Source: Marinobacter arenosus
GTDB lineage: Bacteria; Pseudomonadota; Gammaproteobacteria; Pseudomonadales; Oleiphilaceae
Length of the DNA stretch: 43,059 nt
Direction of reading: 5' to 3'
Assembly (NCBI RefSeq): GCF_019264345.1
Contig: NZ_JAHVAO010000003.1
Location: forward strand, 270,287-313,345
The notes beneath the pieces are model-generated. The model was not told where the DNA came from, made no database searches, and saw nothing but the letters and a program-made list of their open reading frames with translations. The position numbers and the translations under genes were made by a program. Below are positions 6,837 to 43,059 of this stretch, in pieces. Numbering within the stretch: position 1 is the first letter of the stretch; each line of letters begins with the position of its first letter.

Positions 6837-7072
6837 AGTGCTTTTCCCGGTGGTGAATGCATGAAAAAGGGTGGATGCCTGACCCGCAGGCCGAGACATC
6901 GAACTACACTCTAAGTGGGGACAGGGCCAGTGTTTTCAAGGTGGCCAGGGTATTCGCGCCCCACATCCTTCTGTGGAACAGGGCCGTTCCTGAGCGCTAC
7001 AAATCCGAAGGCCCGGTGCCGGGCCACACCCGCGCAGCCTGTTGGTACCGCCGGAGTTTTAAGAACGAGTGA

Positions 7073-7088
7073 TATACGAACTCGTTCG
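7073..7088 (+). repeat. TATACGAACTCGTTCG palindromic motif, left copy
   Basis: The 16-bp word differs by one base from copies at 40343-40358 and 40585-40600. Here it lies 11 bp before a cassette-type boundary GTTAGGC (7100-7106). Its role is unknown: part of an attI-like or short attC-like site, or a mobile palindrome. Confidence 0.6.
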
Positions 7089-7116
7089 CATAAATGGCTG
7101 TTAGGCAGTGGATCGG

Positions 7117-7281
7117 ATGCTAGTTTTAATAGTGATCTTTTTGGCTTTTTCGATGATCTCAGATGCGAAAATGTGGTCATCAGTGGAGCCGCTAGATGAG
7201 CCTGACAAGTCGCTCAAGTTTATTCCGGCCTTTGGCCTCCACCGGACGGCCTTGTCAGGCCGCCGCTTAGCGTGGCGTTAG
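7117..7281 (+). CDS. Possible 54-aa cassette peptide reading through attC
   Basis: ATG at 7117 lies 10 bp after GTTAGGC, a cassette boundary. The frame begins with a hydrophobic segment (MLVLIVIFLAFSMISDA) and runs through the whole downstream attC, stopping at the TAG inside its final GTTAGAC. The C-terminal half (FGLHRTALSGRRLAWR) is therefore translated attC. Frames ending inside attC are common in integron cassettes. No clear Shine-Dalgarno is visible, so it may be non-coding. Confidence 0.3.
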   Translation: MLVLIVIFLAFSMISDAKMWSSVEPLDEPDKSLKFIPAFGLHRTALSGRRLAWR

Positions 7282-7283
7282 AC
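7200..7283 (+). other. attC recombination site (cassette island)
   Basis: 84 bp from GCCTGAC (a variant of the RYYYAAC end) to GTTAGAC (GTTRRRY end). Internal inverted arms read GGCCTTTGGCC and CGGCCTTGTCAGGCCG around CCACCGGAC. It closely resembles the attC sites at 40930-41016 and 42860-42947, showing a common integron origin. Confidence 0.85.
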
Positions 7284-7302
7284 GGCGAGGAGGAATAATC
7301 GT

Positions 7303-7914
7303 ATGAACTGGAAATTTTCTTACGCTATCGGCTTTCATCCTTGGGAGGAAACCGACCAAGAGTTCTTTCAATCCCTAGCGTCGCTCCTCGAACGAGATGA
7401 GCAGGACCGTGGACCGCCCTACGGGCGTGCCTTGGATATAGGTACGGGTAGTGCCATTTGGGGCATCGAGCTGGCCAAGCGGGGCTGGGAAGTGACCGGC
7501 GTAGACTTCGTGGACAAGGCCCTGGAACGGGGACGTGAGCGGGTCAAAGCCGCTGGTGTGGAAATGAAGCTGGTGCAGGCGGACGTTACCCGTCTATCAG
7601 AAAGGGACGTAGGTTCCGGCTTCCGGCTTATCCTGGATACTGGCACCTTCCATGACTTCGATGTTGAACAGCAGCAAGGGATGGCCCGCAGCGTGGACGC
7701 CCTTGCCACCGAGGACGCCACAGTTATATTGCTGTGTTGGCCTCGGCGCATCCGCCCGTTGATCAGGGGCGTGAGCCGCCAAGAAATCGAGTCCGCCTTT
7801 GCGGGTTGGCAGATCACGGACGTGGAGCCGTCCTTCTTTAAACTTCCGTTACCCTTGGAATGGGTGCTGCGCCCAGATGAGCATTGGTATCGCCTGCGCC
7901 GTGGAAGAGTTTGA
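7303..7914 (+). CDS. Class I SAM-dependent methyltransferase (cassette gene)
   Basis: 203 residues. ATG follows GAGGAGG and lies 20 bp after the attC end, the classic cassette position. The SAM-binding motif I is ALDIGTGSAIWGIELAKRG, with the acidic motif II in VTGVDFVDKALERG and motif IV near LILDTGTFHDF. The fold and cofactor are clear; the substrate is not. Small stand-alone methyltransferases of this type include toxic-metalloid and small-molecule thiol methylases, but no signature here decides it. An ATCTAAC end follows six bases after the stop. Confidence 0.82.
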   Translation: MNWKFSYAIGFHPWEETDQEFFQSLASLLERDEQDRGPPYGRALDIGTGSAIWGIELAKRGWEVTGVDFVDKALERGRERVKAAGVEMKLVQADVTRLSERDVGSGFRLILDTGTFHDFDVEQQQGMARSVDALATEDATVILLCWPRRIRPLIRGVSRQEIESAFAGWQITDVEPSFFKLPLPLEWVLRPDEHWYRLRRGRV

Positions 7915-7920
7915 CACGCT

Positions 7921-7962
7921 ATCTAACAACCGTCCGCCGCATCCGGGGAATTATGTGTTACT
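7921..7962 (+). other. Decayed attC-like sequence
   Basis: ATCTAAC fits the 5' end of an attC placed directly after a cassette gene, followed by ACCGTCCGCCGCATCCGG. The expected long arm and a good GTTRRRY end are missing, so the site looks truncated. Confidence 0.4.
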
Positions 7963-7980: not shown

Positions 7981-8313
7981 TTGCCTGAATTGAAAACCGT
8001 TGGCCTTTTCCTCGTTACCGCGTTGGCGGAAATTGTCGGCTGTTATTTGCCTTACCTTTGGCTTCGCGAGGGCAAAACGATCTGGCTTCTGGTGCCAGGT
8101 GCGCTGAGTCTCGCGGCGTTTGCGTGGTTGCTGTCACTGCATCCTACCGCTGCCGGCAGGGTCTATGCTGCGTATGGTGGCGTGTATATCTTCATGGCAA
8201 TACTCTGGCTATGGGCCGTCGACGGTATTCGTCCAACCGCCTGGGACTTGATTGGTTCGGCCGTCGCCTTGGTGGGCATGGCCATCATCATGTTTGCACC
8301 ACGCACCTCATAA
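7981..8313 (+). CDS. ynfA: YnfA family (UPF0060) small membrane protein
   Basis: 110 residues from TTG 7981, with AAGGAG at 7966-7971. Four membrane helices fill the sequence. Family-typical stretches are visible: [37 protein letters not shown] and [20 protein letters not shown]. YnfA proteins resemble small multidrug resistance transporters. It follows the methyltransferase cassette and a damaged attC, so it may be a cassette frozen in place or the native flank. No attC follows its stop. Confidence 0.88.
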
Positions 8314-38252: not shown

Positions 38253-40184
38253 TCACGTGTCGATACCCCGGGGCCTTTCCGGCGGCTGCGCAGACTGTCC
38301 GGTGCCTCGGCCCGGCCCGCCGCCTGAATTCACCCGGACAAGCGGACCGGACACGGTTACACCACTGGGGTCCACCTTCACGAAACTGCCGCCCGCCACG
38401 AGGGTGACTTCAGCGCCGGCCTCGATCACAACCTTCACACCGGCCTTGTGATGGATCTCGCTGCCTGCCTCCACAAGCTGCGCAGCCCCCTGAGCGCTGG
38501 AACAATTGCCACTCACCGTCAGGCTGTAATCGCCGCCGATTTTTTCCCGCCGGTCGCCACTCACGGTTCCGTGGGCATCGCCCTTCACCTGGGTGAACCG
38601 GTTGCGCTCAACCGTGAGATGCCGGTCATTTTTGATCACCTCGGTGCGGTTGCGGCCGACAAGCAGATCCAGGTTCTTCTGGGCGTGAAGGTAGACCTGT
38701 TCCCGGCCGGCCTCATCCTCAAACCGCAGCTCGTTACTGCCCTCCCCTTTGTGGGTTCGGGTTTTCAGGGTGGTGCGGGTCTTGTGTTCAGGCAAGGCGT
38801 ACGGTGGCCGGTTGGCCCCGTGGTAGGTTCGCCCGGTAATGATCGGCTGGTCGGGATCGCCATCGAGGAACGAGACGATCACTTCGTGGCCGATTCTTGG
38901 CAGCGCCATGAAACCATACCCGCCGCCGGCCCAGCCCTGACTCACCCGCAACCAGGTACTGCTGTGTTCGTTGTTTCGACCGTAGCGATCCCAGGGAAAA
39001 CGCACCTTGACCCGGCCGTGTTCGTCACAATGAATCTCCTCGCCTTCCGGGCCGGTCACCATGGCGATCTGGGGACCGTCCATCAACGGACGACTCGGTA
39101 GGCGAGGACGCCAGCGGGTATCCGCAGGCACCGCATTGAAAAAGTTATGGTAAGACGTCGGTTCACTCCCCGCCTCTTCCTCCAACGCCTGGGACTGCTT
39201 GCCGACGTGGGTGACCGCCGTAAGCAGCCAATCCCGATTCAGATCGGACCGGGTGTGACCGGTGAGTTTTGTCCACGCACCCGCGACGAAGTCTGGCCGA
39301 TTGCTCTCACCGGTCGCAGTGCTGGCATCGTTTCGGAGGGCATCACGGCGGGAATCGGTAAACGGGCGTCCACTTGCATCGGTTTTGAAGCGGCCCGGAT
39401 AGTCGAAGTGCTGGTAGTCGTGCCGGTGGCTGGGACTGCTGGCGCTGCTCTCATGCATCAACTCGTAAGCGGGATTCCGGAACGTGTAGTCCTTCATGAC
39501 CACCGACGCCGCACGGACCCGCTCCTGGTTGGCGAAGCGGAAAACGCCGCGCTGGCGCACGCTGCCACCGCCCATGGCCGTGTACGGGGACGGCGGCAAT
39601 GTCGGGGCATCGCCGTGGTGGTCCGCGAAGATCAGCGCCGGCTGCTCGCTCCCATCCACGCTGCCGTGCTGATACCGGTAGTGCCAGCCCTCCTCGGCGG
39701 CAAGACGCTCAACAAACGCCAGGTCGCTTTCCCGGTGCTGAACGCAATATTCCCGCTCCTCCACCGAACGCTTCAGATCAAACACGGCATTCGCGATCCC
39801 ACGCTCTTCCAGCAAGGTTCGCACGATGGCGTCGGTGGTTCGGGACTGGAAGATTCGGCTGTTCTGCATGAGACCCAGACGCCAAAGCGGCGGCTGGAAC
39901 ACCACCTCATACCGGGTGCGGCGATGGCCGGAATCGCCCCGCACACATTCACTGACCACACCGGTAAACCGGCGAACGGGCTCGCCATCCTGCCAGATCA
40001 GCAGGTCCACGGGCTGCTCCAGCAGATCCTCTGCACGAACGCCTGGATCGGTACTGGCCAGTTGCAACCGGCCATGGGAAAGCTGAGAAAGGCCTTCGGT
40101 CAGCGCAAAGCTGACAACGGCGAATACATCCGGGGCATGTTCACCAATACGGGCGGTGAACTGCAATCCACTTGCCTGGGGCAT
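38253..40184 (-). CDS. vgrG: Type VI secretion spike protein VgrG
   Basis: 643 residues from ATG 40184, preceded by AGGA; a longer frame to 40280 lacks such a site. N-terminal gp27-like part (LQFTARIGEHAPDVFAVVSF; CVQHRESDLAFVERLAAEEG), OB-fold gp5 part (ATVTGPEGEEIHCDEHGRVK written as VTGPEGEEIHCDEHG; WLRVSQGWAGGGYGFMALPR; GHEVIVSFLDGDPDQPII) and a gp5-like needle (NRTEVIKNDRHLTVERNRFT). It ends soon after the needle with a Gly/Pro tail (NSGGGPGRGTGQSAQPP) and has no effector domain. No other type VI gene or obvious effector lies in the window. Confidence 0.93.
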   Translation of the reverse strand: MPQASGLQFTARIGEHAPDVFAVVSFALTEGLSQLSHGRLQLASTDPGVRAEDLLEQPVDLLIWQDGEPVRRFTGVVSECVRGDSGHRRTRYEVVFQPPLWRLGLMQNSRIFQSRTTDAIVRTLLEERGIANAVFDLKRSVEEREYCVQHRESDLAFVERLAAEEGWHYRYQHGSVDGSEQPALIFADHHGDAPTLPPSPYTAMGGGSVRQRGVFRFANQERVRAASVVMKDYTFRNPAYELMHESSASSPSHRHDYQHFDYPGRFKTDASGRPFTDSRRDALRNDASTATGESNRPDFVAGAWTKLTGHTRSDLNRDWLLTAVTHVGKQSQALEEEAGSEPTSYHNFFNAVPADTRWRPRLPSRPLMDGPQIAMVTGPEGEEIHCDEHGRVKVRFPWDRYGRNNEHSSTWLRVSQGWAGGGYGFMALPRIGHEVIVSFLDGDPDQPIITGRTYHGANRPPYALPEHKTRTTLKTRTHKGEGSNELRFEDEAGREQVYLHAQKNLDLLVGRNRTEVIKNDRHLTVERNRFTQVKGDAHGTVSGDRREKIGGDYSLTVSGNCSSAQGAAQLVEAGSEIHHKAGVKVVIEAGAEVTLVAGGSFVKVDPSGVTVSGPLVRVNSGGGPGRGTGQSAQPPERPRGIDT

Positions 40185-40342
40185 GTCTTCAGTCCTTTGA
40201 AGGTATGGCAATGTGATGACAGGACTCCCAGCGCAATCCGTGGCCGGAAACTCCATAAACCGAGCGAAAAGTACCAGCACCGCACGGGATAATCAACGAA
40301 CCAGCCACCCGGCTGACCTGCCCTACCCCACATAACCGGAAT

Positions 40343-40358
40343 TATACGAACGCGTTCG
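40343..40358 (+). repeat. TATACGAACGCGTTCG palindromic motif, copy 2
   Basis: Part of GGAATTATACGAACGCGTTCG (40338-40358). CGAACGCGTTCG is a perfect palindrome. Identical 16-bp word at 40585-40600; one-base variant at 7073-7088. Confidence 0.8.
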
Positions 40359-40584
40359 CAAAAGTCCGTGAGTAAAGGCGGGAATCTGCTGTAAGTATCT
40401 GATAGGTTTATAACTACGCAGAGACTCCCTTGGAATTATACGCCCTGAGCGACACGGCAACCTTGCGGCGAGATGGGCGAATAACTCCGGTGAGTGCCAA
40501 GCGGAAATTTGCTAAGGCATTGATAAGTTGGAAGCTTCAGGTCATTTCAAAGCTTTCCAGAACTGGAATTATACGAATGGGCGT

Positions 40585-40600
40585 TATACGAACGCGTTCG
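40585..40600 (+). repeat. TATACGAACGCGTTCG palindromic motif, copy 3
   Basis: Same word as 40343-40358. It lies 11 bp before GTTAGAT, the same geometry as the copy at 7073-7088, which lies 11 bp before GTTAGGC. Confidence 0.8.
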
Positions 40601-40629
40601 TTGAATACGCTGTTAGATAGGTACATAAA

Positions 40630-40923
40630 GTGTCGAACTATAGGTACTTCATAATTCAAACTTATGACAACCCTGGAGAGCCTTCGAAAAAGAGGGTTCG
40701 GGCCAAAGCTGTGCCTGGGCAGGGAGTTGCTACAGAGCGGAAAGTAGAGTGCTCTGAAGATATGCGGCTTTCCCATCCGATCGGCACTTACTTCAAAGTG
40801 GAATGCAAAGTAACTGATCGAGAGGGCGGAACGCCGTTTTTGTATCGACACCACTCCTGGCCTTATGAAGTAGTAACCGAGAAAGAGGCAAAAGAATTCA
40901 TTAAGAAAAATTTCGGTGGTTAA
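40630..40923 (+). CDS. Cassette ORF 1, hypothetical protein (97 aa)
   Basis: Not recognised. GTG start 11 bases after the boundary GTTAGAT; no Shine-Dalgarno. The sequence is soluble and basic (NYRYFIIQTYDNPGEPSKKR; FLYRHHSWPYEVVTEKEAKEFI), with alternating strands suggesting a small beta-rich fold. Stop lies six bases before an attC. More AT-rich than the vgrG region. Confidence 0.7.
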   Translation: MSNYRYFIIQTYDNPGEPSKKRVRAKAVPGQGVATERKVECSEDMRLSHPIGTYFKVECKVTDREGGTPFLYRHHSWPYEVVTEKEAKEFIKKNFGG

Positions 40924-40929
40924 TCATCG

Positions 40930-41016
40930 ATCTAACAATACCATTAAGGTTGTTACGGGCCTTTGGCCCTCCACCGGACGCCCTTTTCAGGGCGCCGCTT
41001 ATGGCTGGCGTTAGAG
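40930..41016 (+). other. attC site 1 of the cassette array
   Basis: 87 bp from ATCTAAC to GTTAGAG, with arms GGGCCTTTGGCCC and CGCCCTTTTCAGGGCG around TCCACCGGA. Very like 7200-7283 and 42860-42947. Confidence 0.92.
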
Positions 41017-41022
41017 AGCATT

Positions 41023-41601
41023 ATGAAGTACGCAGAAGATTACTCAGGCTGGGGAAACGAAGTGCTCTATCGGATGTGCTCTGAAAGACCCCTTCATGAT
41101 GATGTTGACACCGTCGTCGGAAAGCTTTGGATTATTGGGCGCGCCTACTCCGCAAGCATTGAGCGTAAGGCTGGTGGGGATTTCAATATTGAAGACGCGG
41201 CACAGCTGTTAATTGAATCTGGCATTGATGTTCTGATCAATTCTTTGAATAAGATTGATAGGGTTACAGCTGACAATATCCACGAAGTATTAAAGGCACA
41301 TAAGGTTCTTACTGATACCTTTGCAAATGCTACGGGGATCGAAAAGCGCTCTCTAGCCTCTAAATACCTTCACTTTCATGCTCCAAGGTCGGTTTTCATC
41401 TATGACTCTATTGCAAATAGAGAGATTAGAGCCCGACTAGAGAGAAAAAGATTTGATATTCCTCGTGAGTTCGATGATGCGTATTCTGCATTCTGCTACC
41501 GTTGCCTGCACTATCGGGACTTCGAGTTTGAGCCAAGGTTAGGTGAGCTGGCGACCCCTAGGAAACTGGATATGGAGCTTTTAGGTTATCGAGCTCTCTA
41601 A
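41023..41601 (+). CDS. Cassette ORF 2, hypothetical protein (192 aa)
   Basis: Not recognised. ATG 41023, six bases after the attC end; a longer frame to 40963 would translate attC. All-helical, soluble: SERPLHDDVDTVVGKLWIIG, AAQLLIESGIDVLINSLNKI, RSLASKYLHFHAPRSVFIYD, RCLHYRDFEFEPRLGE. The conserved-looking SLASKYLHFH...FIYDS stretch resembles a recurrent motif in uncharacterised accessory proteins. Stop overlaps the next attC. Confidence 0.8.
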   Translation: MKYAEDYSGWGNEVLYRMCSERPLHDDVDTVVGKLWIIGRAYSASIERKAGGDFNIEDAAQLLIESGIDVLINSLNKIDRVTADNIHEVLKAHKVLTDTFANATGIEKRSLASKYLHFHAPRSVFIYDSIANREIRARLERKRFDIPREFDDAYSAFCYRCLHYRDFEFEPRLGELATPRKLDMELLGYRAL

Positions 41602-41679
41602 CAATCGCAGGCACAGCGACGGCTTTTCCATTGCGGCTGCGCCTTCATTACAAAACCGCGCGTGCTGCGGGCGTTAAAG
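41596..41679 (+). other. attC site 2 of the cassette array
   Basis: 84 bp from CTCTAAC to GTTAAAG. Arms include GCGACGGCTTTTCCATTGC and GCGCGTGCTGCGGGCG. Different arm sequence from sites 1 and 5. Confidence 0.78.
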
Positions 41680-41683
41680 CCCT

Positions 41684-42067
41684 ATGAGAATCGAACCATT
41701 TTCCAAGCTGGATGATGTTTCCCTGAGTGCGAACCGGGATGAGTTGAGCCGACTGCTTGGCGCTCCAGTGAACAACAACGTTAATCGGTTGGGCCTGGAC
41801 GAGTTTGATTATGGGGGCCGAGTTTTTCGATTTGAGCCAAGTGGATGTTTGAGTGAGGTAACCATCGAGGCTGAGCGAGTAGAGTTTGGCCAAGTCAGTG
41901 TTCCGTTTACTGCGCTGTCTGATTTTATCTCATCCAGCGATCCTGACTCTTTTGAAAGGTATGGGTTCATAGTTAGCCCAGCTTACGGAATAGCTTTCGA
42001 TCCAGAGCATCACCCTTGGGTTACAGTTCTAACCAGAGCAGGGCTAGACGGATGGAAAAAGCTTTAA
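41684..42067 (+). CDS. Cassette ORF 3, hypothetical protein (127 aa)
   Basis: Not recognised. ATG four bases after the attC end. Soluble, acidic (LSANRDELSRLLGAPVNNN; DEFDYGGRVFRFEPSG; FDPEHHPWVTVLTRAGLDGW). The wording FDYGGRVFRFEPSGCLSEVT suggests a small SMI1/immunity-like or SnoaL-like fold, but this is not established. Stop lies inside the next attC. Confidence 0.75.
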   Translation: MRIEPFSKLDDVSLSANRDELSRLLGAPVNNNVNRLGLDEFDYGGRVFRFEPSGCLSEVTIEAERVEFGQVSVPFTALSDFISSSDPDSFERYGFIVSPAYGIAFDPEHHPWVTVLTRAGLDGWKKL

Positions 42068-42122
42068 CAAGCCGCGTAAGTCGGACGTCCCTGACGGGCC
42101 GCCGCTTCGCTCCGCGTTAGGC
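42062..42122 (+). other. attC site 3 of the cassette array
   Basis: 61 bp from CTTTAAC to GTTAGGC, a short-form attC with GTCGGACGTCCCTGACGGGC and CCGCTTCGCTCCGC. Confidence 0.82.
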
Positions 42123-42127
42123 ATTTT

Positions 42128-42499
42128 ATGGAAGTATCGAAGCTCAGCATCTGGGCTCTTTTAACGCTCCCGTTTTATCGTTCAGTTACTTGGCAAGAGT
42201 CACTTTCTGAGCTTGGTAGTCGTGGCCTCCCAAACCTTCTTGTCCGGCTTGTCTGGATACTTTTGTTTCCTTTCGTGGCGTTTTCCCGGACCGATGATGA
42301 CTACGCAATTATGGATGTGGCCCCGGATTTAGGTGACTGCATTTGGTCGCTTGGCACTTTTTCGTTGCTTGCGGGATTTGTGACATTGCCAATATTTGCA
42401 GTAATCGACGGTCTTCCTACCTGGCTTTCTGGCCTACTTATCGCAGGCTGGCCAGTGTGCAAGTTTCTTTCGATACCGTTTACCAAGAGGAACCTTTGA
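42128..42499 (+). CDS. Cassette ORF 4, membrane protein of unknown function (123 aa)
   Basis: Not recognised. ATG five bases after the attC end. Three likely membrane helices (LLVRLVWILLFPFVAFS; LGTFSLLAGFVTLPIFAV; WLSGLLIAGWPVCKFLSI) with a short acidic loop (RTDDDYAIMDVAPDLGD). Stop sits one base before the next attC. Confidence 0.75.
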   Translation: MEVSKLSIWALLTLPFYRSVTWQESLSELGSRGLPNLLVRLVWILLFPFVAFSRTDDDYAIMDVAPDLGDCIWSLGTFSLLAGFVTLPIFAVIDGLPTWLSGLLIAGWPVCKFLSIPFTKRNL

Positions 42500-42500
42500 T

Positions 42501-42590
42501 GCCTAACAAGTCGGTCAACCGGACGCCAAAAGCGTACCGCTTTTGGTTCCCTCCGCTGCGCTACGGCGCCGGTTACCATCAGCGTTATGT
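42501..42590 (+). other. attC site 4 of the cassette array
   Basis: 90 bp from GCCTAAC to GTTATGT. A long hairpin is evident: CCAAAAGCG and CGCTTTTGG, flanked by CCGGACG and CGGCGCCGG. Confidence 0.82.
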
Positions 42591-42607
42591 GTTCATAGGA
42601 ATCAAAC

Positions 42608-42856
42608 ATGGGTGAAAAGGAATCGGAAAAGCTGCTTGTTGAGATCCGAGATGAGATCAAGGAAATGAATGCCCATTTCAGGTGGTTCCGTACGCAAGCC
42701 GAGAAAGAATTCGAAAGTGGCGCAGTGCCAGATGAATCTAATCAGGGAAGGTTTGGAATCGACACCAAAAAGCTCAAAACTGAATTTGTGCTAATTGGTG
42801 TGTTTGCTGGTCTATTTGCCATTGGCTACGCCCTGAACAAGCTTGGCTACTTGTGA
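42608..42856 (+). CDS. Cassette ORF 5, tail-anchored small protein (82 aa)
   Basis: Not recognised. A charged helical N-terminus (KESEKLLVEIRDEIKEMNAH) is followed by a C-terminal membrane helix (FVLIGVFAGLFAIGYALNKL). Stop lies four bases before the next attC. Confidence 0.75.
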   Translation: MGEKESEKLLVEIRDEIKEMNAHFRWFRTQAEKEFESGAVPDESNQGRFGIDTKKLKTEFVLIGVFAGLFAIGYALNKLGYL

Positions 42857-42859
42857 CGC

Positions 42860-42947
42860 ACATAACCAGTCATTCCAGTTCGTTACGGCCCTGAAGGGCC
42901 TCCACCGGACGCCCTTGTCAGGGCGCCGCTGAATATTGGCGTTAGTT
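42860..42947 (+). other. attC site 5 of the cassette array
   Basis: 88 bp from ACATAAC to GTTAGTT, with arms CGGCCCTGAAGGGCC and CGCCCTTGTCAGGGCG around TCCACCGGA, nearly the same as site 1. Confidence 0.92.
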
Positions 42948-42962
42948 GCTAAAGGAGAGCGA

Positions 42963-43059
42963 GTGAGAGTCCTGCTGATCCTGAGTGCTTTTTTAGTAGG
43001 CTGCTCAAGTGAAGAAATACTTTATGTGCCGGGTCCTGATTTTTACCAGCGCGTGGATT
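42963..43059 (+). CDS. Cassette ORF 6, lipoprotein (3' end outside window)
   Basis: GTG 42963 after AAAGGAG. The visible 32 residues are a signal with lipobox (LLILSAFLVGCSSEE), so a lipoprotein is predicted. The frame is open to the right edge. Function cannot be judged. Confidence 0.7.
   Translation, partial: MRVLLILSAFLVGCSSEEILYVPGPDFYQRVD

Follow-up and report, generated by a model that had tools for sequence, protein, structure and literature searches.

Integrons are usually described as one integrase with one attI site, and clusters of attC sites that lack an integrase as relics, decay in situ being the usual view of how they arise. The sedentary chromosomal integrons of the Vibrio type combine an integrase of the IntI family with an attI and with attC arrays of dozens of cassettes. 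The subject of this work is an array of gene cassettes at the right end of a stretch of 43,059 nucleotides from Marinobacter arenosus (the window; positions 270287-313345 of contig C3 in a genome of 4.11 Mb in 8 contigs). We consider it probable (roughly 0.78) that this array belongs to a distributed chromosomal integron as a satellite platform, with an attI but no integrase gene (intI) of its own, and that one integrase serves dispersed attI sites in trans. Such a system would share the IntI family, the attI and the long attC arrays with sedentary chromosomal integrons, but would differ from them in having several dispersed chromosomal attI platforms for one integrase.

One attI per integron is stated in PMC3607928. 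In the classification of IntegronFinder, clusters of attC sites lacking a nearby integrase form a class of their own (CALIN; PMC9024848), and CALINs are described as mobilisable in trans by a functional IntI in PMC12444791, where insertion at attG sites is also cited. In Shewanella, CALINs and single attC sites occur in genomes with and without intI (PMC9229058); for Marinobacter sp. LQ44, one CALIN and one In0 are given, with no attI mentioned there in the part of the report available (PMC10295459). Delta-attI cassettes are found in class 1 and 2 integrons, in one variant with 244 nt of attI2 region retained (PMC12901181).

The window array resembles a CALIN in being an attC array with cassettes and no adjacent intI, but it has an attI with a full leader. 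With Delta-attI cassettes it shares an attI sequence away from the usual place; there, however, a piece of attI stands where an open reading frame (ORF) within the array would have its downstream attC, whereas here a whole leader and attI follow chromosomal DNA and precede cassette 1. Insertion at attG likewise places cassettes outside the canonical platform, but the target here is a homologous attI and not a short non-classical site. The array is thus neither a Delta-attI cassette nor an attG insertion, and among the open-licence papers listed in our searches we recognised none that describes arrays which have an attI but lack an integrase.

The attI at the head of the vgrG-locus array

The array is headed by an attI, and the integrase is absent beside it. 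The attI is recognised because positions 40338-40615 are homologous to the leader and attI of an integrase gene on contig C5 of the same genome, with 66% identity over 283 bp, and because this homology ends at the crossover CGCTG^TTA; the last 52 bases of the block are 94% identical to their C5 counterpart. Compared with a complete integron, the array has the attI at its head and attC sites in a single orientation, and it lacks the adjacent intI. An earlier note on this DNA, the sequence-only reading, had placed vgrG to the left of the first cassette with no integrase there, which holds; it had also considered the attI to be missing from the head of the array, where a leader and attI of 275 bp are in fact found. 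The features of the locus are listed below, attC sites having been located with covariance models.

40338..40612, plus strand: orphan leader and attI block, 275 bp, between vgrG and cassette 1, a diverged copy of C5:120-395
40338..40367, plus strand: left-end palindrome of the block, family consensus GGAGTTATACGAACGCGTTCGCAAAACTCC
40432..40488, plus strand: internal inverted repeat GGAATTATACGCCC...GGGCGAATAACTCC, kept across the family
40562..40615, plus strand: attI proper, core CGAACGCGTTCG, crossover CGCTG^TTA with its G at 40612
40613..41010, plus strand: cassette 1, bounded by crossovers, ORF 40630-40923 (97 aa), attC 40930-41015 (plus)
41011..41673, plus strand: cassette 2, ORF 41023-41601 (192 aa, unknown function), attC 41596-41678 (plus)
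41674..42116, plus strand: cassette 3, ORF 41684-42067 (127 aa, unknown function), attC 42062-42121 (plus)
42117..42584, plus strand: cassette 4, ORF 42128-42499 (123 aa, unknown function, hydrophobic stretches by eye), attC 42501-42589 (plus)
42585..42941, plus strand: cassette 5, ORF 42608-42856 (82 aa, unknown function), attC 42860-42945 (plus)
42942..43059, plus strand: cassette 6, interrupted by the contig end
38253..40184, minus strand: vgrG, chromosomal, encoding a type VI secretion spike, left of the array (Phage_GPD E 7e-78, Gp5_trimer_C, Phage_base_V)

A model of the attI, R1 (55 bases), rests on 41 copies, the window's own among them, so the score of the window site (64.3 bits, E 2.7e-18) is not independent, whereas the DNA searches of the block are independent of this model. 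It might be supposed that the cassettes were inserted at a secondary genomic site of the attG type, whose left flank resembles an attI by chance. Insertion at sites other than attI is on record (cited in PMC12444791); however, this explanation is contradicted for 40338-40612 and is very improbable. A homologous leader of 283 bp is not a short consensus site, R1 places the site at 40562-40615 at E 2.6e-17 in its own genome (window copy in the model), and in an order-wide sample of 390 genomes, searched with stricter filters, attI matches were found in 14, namely 12 of the genus (own genome included) and two others, both weak.

All five complete attC sites of the array (5/5) lie on the plus strand. 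They had been read from the sequence as separating small genes of unknown function, and this description is confirmed by a covariance model, R3, trained on 19 attC sites of contigs C1 and C2 and on no window sequence; a further model, R2, included window attC sites in its training set. In the 67,475 bases searched, R3 gives no more than six sites up to E 1, namely these five and one at 7200-7282, with E values between 2.3e-15 and 3.1e-7. Simple hairpin scans gave mostly false or missed sites, which is why covariance models were used instead, and a hairpin pattern search across the own genome gave 0 matches. For the proteins of the five cassette ORFs (97, 192, 127, 123 and 82 aa), comparison with Pfam, NCBIfam and PADLOC gave nothing significant. 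Cassette 6 starts with what we take, from the motif, to be a lipoprotein-like signal (LILSAFLVGC). The start of vgrG was set at the likely ATG at 40184, the ORF reaching 40280 in the list of reading frames; no integrase lies between vgrG and the array, no promoter-like pair was found in 40180-40720, and the window holds no Rfam family at the gathering threshold.

The integrase on contig C5 and the traffic of cassettes

Nine places in the genome match the integron-integrase model TIGR02249 and one of them exceeds the cut-off, the gene at C5:465-1460 (427 bits against 265), with its leader and attI at C5:120-395. Its product can be aligned over its whole length (residues 13-324) with the IntI of V. 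cholerae (PDB 2a3v), and the alignment passes through what is taken to be the IntI-specific extra region. Among the matches listed, the 14 closest named relatives of this integrase are all from Marinobacter (22 of the 80 loci kept). As checks, the sequence-only reading had proposed looking for intI right of 43059 and elsewhere and searching the genome for attC with covariance models: the sole intI over the cut-off is thus on C5, none is found beside the array, and yet an attI adjoins cassette 1. At least 77 attC sites were detected, a lower bound given that 150 of 2885 first-look candidates were scored; they lie at the ends of C1, C2 and C3, on the array contigs C6 and C7, and in a few solitary positions.

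The right end of the window coincides with the end of C3 (313345), so the array is interrupted by an assembly break, and array contig C6 ends in the same 123 bases as the window. Ends of this length are common to three pairs of contigs (C1/C2, C3/C6 and C5/C7). With two array heads (C3, C5), two far ends (C1, C2) and these paired ends, the assembly fits two long arrays broken at repeated cassettes, one apparently headed by intI and attI and the other by the orphan attI; C6 and C7 are assigned to neither. The break in a repetitive array and the common 123-bp ends could also suggest an artefact of assembly or position, in which the array would be part of the C5 integron, with intI a short way past the window. 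This is contradicted on several counts and has hardly any probability: the missing part is the far end of the array and not its head; vgrG, block and cassette 1 stand on a single contig; C5 has an attI of its own, and the two heads pair with two far ends; and the vgrG-locus block occurs without intI in five further genomes, two of which (G007 and G065) consist of a single contig.

Cassette 1 (40613-41010) is identical over 398 of 398 positions to C7:4260-4657, and the neighbouring sequences diverge exactly at the crossovers (G^TT) on both sides. Because the copy is identical and bounded by crossovers, it suggests, at the level of sequence, recent use of the orphan attI. A second copy of the cassette that comes first at the C5 attI lies at the end of C7, matching over the stretch that is present on C5. 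The closed genome G056 offers a direct comparison, as the first cassette of its lemA-locus orphan and that of its intI-linked attI are identical (433/433). Cassette copies within one genome are 99.3-100% identical in G107, 97.5% identical over 606 nt in G061 and about 93% identical in G014, and a common stretch of at least 180 nt was found in 6 of 17 same-genome array pairs. The array had been read as a cluster of attC sites without integrase, and formally this is right, since its attC sites number two or more and an integron integrase is absent from the vicinity, as the definition of a CALIN requires; what this description omits is the array's own attI and a cassette copy that suggests recent use.

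Comparison of the same locus between genomes likewise suggests turnover of cassettes. Among 34 pairs from seven same-locus groups (the intI-locus group and the window were left out, and alignments above 150 bp were considered), 18 give a single alignment across left flank and block that ends 0 to +2 from the crossover, 3 reach the crossover in two pieces and 1 ends at +19/+21. Examples are L094/L098 (7,164 bp, 92.7%), L095/L257 (8,079 bp, 92.2%), L083/L085 (7,008 bp, 88.6%) and L084/L089 (6,684 bp, 93.5%); some common stretches resume farther downstream.

If the window array is a satellite of this kind, the C5 IntI would act in trans on folded attC cassettes excised from any array and would insert them at whichever attI it binds, canonical or orphan, so that one integrase could feed several arrays. 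The blocks would have arisen by copying of the leader and attI as a unit without intI. Cassette turnover would go on at some loci, while others would lose intI or shrink and turn static.

Several observations weigh against this reading. In this genome C7 is assigned to neither array, so the cassette 1 copy does not establish that cassettes passed from one array to the other; in the wider comparison, 11 of the 17 same-genome array pairs have no common stretch of at least 180 nt, and 12 of the 34 same-locus pairs end short of the block end or have no alignment listed. The whole-length identity of the window's orphan block to its own intI-linked block is just 60.6%, the attI end alone being well kept, and one copy in G056 is also an exception at 69.5%. 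No clean pair of occupied and empty sites was found at the loci tried (nrdB, a second locus and lemA). Finally, among the matches listed, 20 genomes bear orphan attI sites and no intI at E<=1e-60, and for that reason their arrays may be dead.

Distribution of the block and the question of decay

DNA searches detect the block in 69 of 124 genomes of the genus and the attI model in 77 of 124, both counts including the own genome and intI-linked copies. Among the matches listed, 124 attI sites score at least 40 bits (rows below this were excluded): 30 lie within 1.5 kb of an intI match and 94, in 63 genomes, do not, although some of these orphans adjoin truncated intI below the 1e-60 limit or contig ends. 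Both intI-linked and orphan attI sites occur in 21 genomes of the same list. Forty-one block-bearing regions fall into 16 left-flank contexts, including the vgrG locus in 6 genomes and a position downstream of nrdB in 3; the intI locus accounts for 8 regions, of which 4 have a full-length intI, 3 a truncated one (L086, L088, L252) and 1 none. No intI match was found up to 2.5 kb upstream of the block in 34 of the 41 regions. G014 has three copies, one beside intI, with blocks 89-94.5% identical and unrelated flanks.

The blocks are associated with arrays. In the window and regions L081-L100, all 115 of 115 attC matches lie downstream of an attI on the same strand, and 19 of the next 20 regions have attC downstream of the attI on its strand, which makes 39 of 40 fetched regions overall. 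L247 has no attC match; there the fetched stretch ends about 0.8 kb from the attI.

According to the usual view of such clusters, a complete second integron beside vgrG would have lost its intI in situ, leaving the attI and cassettes as a fossil. On the one hand, intI is truncated at the canonical locus in some species (the three regions named above), the 20 orphan-bearing genomes without intI exist, and the window block is diverged. On the other hand, in the six genomes examined at the vgrG locus the 2.5 kb upstream of the block contain no intI match, a common left edge is seen in contexts that are unrelated to each other, cassette 1 has a duplicate with 100% identity, and the first cassette of the G056 orphan equals that of its intI-linked attI. 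Decay of a resident integron is therefore, in our judgement, an unlikely origin for this array.

Eight orphans are 82-94.5% identical to the intI-linked block of their own genome (two in G014 and one each in G056, G107, G035, G068, G117 and G004); in 12 of 45 blocks the left motif was not found, and as these were kept with a fixed-length cut, the identities given for them are minimum values. Where a genome has an integrase, this high identity looks like homogenisation by conversion or by repeated copying.

Should one integrase indeed serve several platforms in Marinobacter, live satellites may be numerous among CALINs elsewhere, and current software cannot recognise them because attI is not looked for. 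The genus would then supply natural replicates, with 16 contexts and several integrase subclades, for attI recognition, for the choice of platform by cassettes and for founding at new sites. It also encourages us to ask whether insertion of cassettes by one IntI would be about as frequent at an attI that is not linked to it.

Ends of the block, the lemA locus and further observations

The left edge GGAGTTATACGAAC is common to most copies read, orphan or intI-linked, and all selected copies end at the attI; in 12 of 45 blocks the left-edge motif is not at the expected place, the edge being partly varied or shifted and partly lost. The consensus of the block, which left out 6 of 45 blocks, consists of four modules: the left palindrome, a CTATCTGATAG motif, the inverted repeat GGAGTTATACGCCC/GGGCGTATAACTCC, and the attI. 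In the window copy the left-end palindrome folds no better than shuffles.

The two ends appear to follow the integrase. Integrases 74-100% identical to that of C5 go with attI core CGAACGCGTTCG or close variants, and most of those 64-70% identical go with CGTCATTTGTCG or close variants. In the leaders of the latter group, with positions counted from where the integrase match starts, GACAAATGACGC (up to 2 mismatches) stands near +83 to +91 in 7 of 13, a related near-palindrome of opposite sense stands there in 3 of 13 and neither in 3 of 13; 9 of 13 also have GACAAATGACGC near +202 to +210, and the attI is near +320. Left-end and attI cores thus vary together between integrase subclades in most leaders read. 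Three orphan blocks of the CGTCATTTGTCG core type (L212, L213 and L224), located 12-13 bp past the nrdB stop codon, carry the left core CGACAAATGACG, which is identical to the usual attI core read as its reverse complement. A derivation of this nrdB-side type from the leader of a 47%-identical integrase was rejected, as those leaders differ and the match is to the 64-70% subclade. Since the left end follows integrase type, these patterns suggest that the integrase reads both block ends.

For this reason, with cores at both ends that follow the integrase type, the integrase itself may possibly be involved in copying of the blocks. A bolder proposal goes further: the leader and attI, about 278 bp, would be a discrete dispersing unit that founds platforms, bounded by integrase-type-specific sites and copied by the integrase or through folded-strand replication, with one IntI both building and running the network of arrays. 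We regard this as tentative and rather doubtful. Less likely still is a MITE-like (miniature inverted-repeat transposable element) or other transposable unit moved by a transposase, around which cassettes gathered later. Discrete ends common to copies with unrelated flanks would suit such an element, as would the second-core-type orphan blocks with a left core reverse complementary to the attI core; however, attC sites follow the attI on its strand in 39 of 40 fetched regions, neither a target duplication nor an empty site was shown, and one block used as query (from G014) has no match in plasmid or phage records. An exact 33-base attI string was likewise not found in viral contigs.

A second, shortened orphan attI lies elsewhere in the window, upstream of lemA.

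7053..7100, plus strand: shortened orphan attI, crossover ATGGCTG^TTA with its G at 7100 (E 3.7e-11 in the own genome)
7101..7277, plus strand: cassette at this attI, attC 7200-7282
7278..7962, plus strand: probable methyltransferase cassette, ORF 7303-7914, right limit approximate
7981-8313: ynfA-like ORF after the methyltransferase cassette

The end of the methyltransferase cassette is a degenerate attC-like sequence by eye, not detected by the models. This attI seems to have been shortened by a deletion between GGAGTT repeats of the block. At the lemA locus of other genomes, G002 and G056 have a full block and G003 a short form resembling that of the window; in the remaining genomes read there is no full block. 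G091 has a left block remnant only, followed by the same right flank as in the window; it was considered as an empty site and rejected, because a left remnant joined to the right flank denotes a deletion.

Some further observations concern single loci. At the nrdB locus of G057 (L231) the block has lost more than 100 internal bases and kept both ends. Beside nrdB in L216, L223, L227, L238 and L239 there is a second type of integrase, which in segments has 44-59% identity with the C5 IntI; its leaders are unlike the block in the four read. In the own genome (G000), solitary attC matches off the arrays at C1:1636274, C1:1493455, C1:1398939 and C1:26373 are possible attG-type insertions. A frame of 106 aa at C1:2209010-2209246 (L019) matches the first quarter only of the integron-integrase model, at 56 bits, and may be a Xer-like fragment or what is left of another intI.

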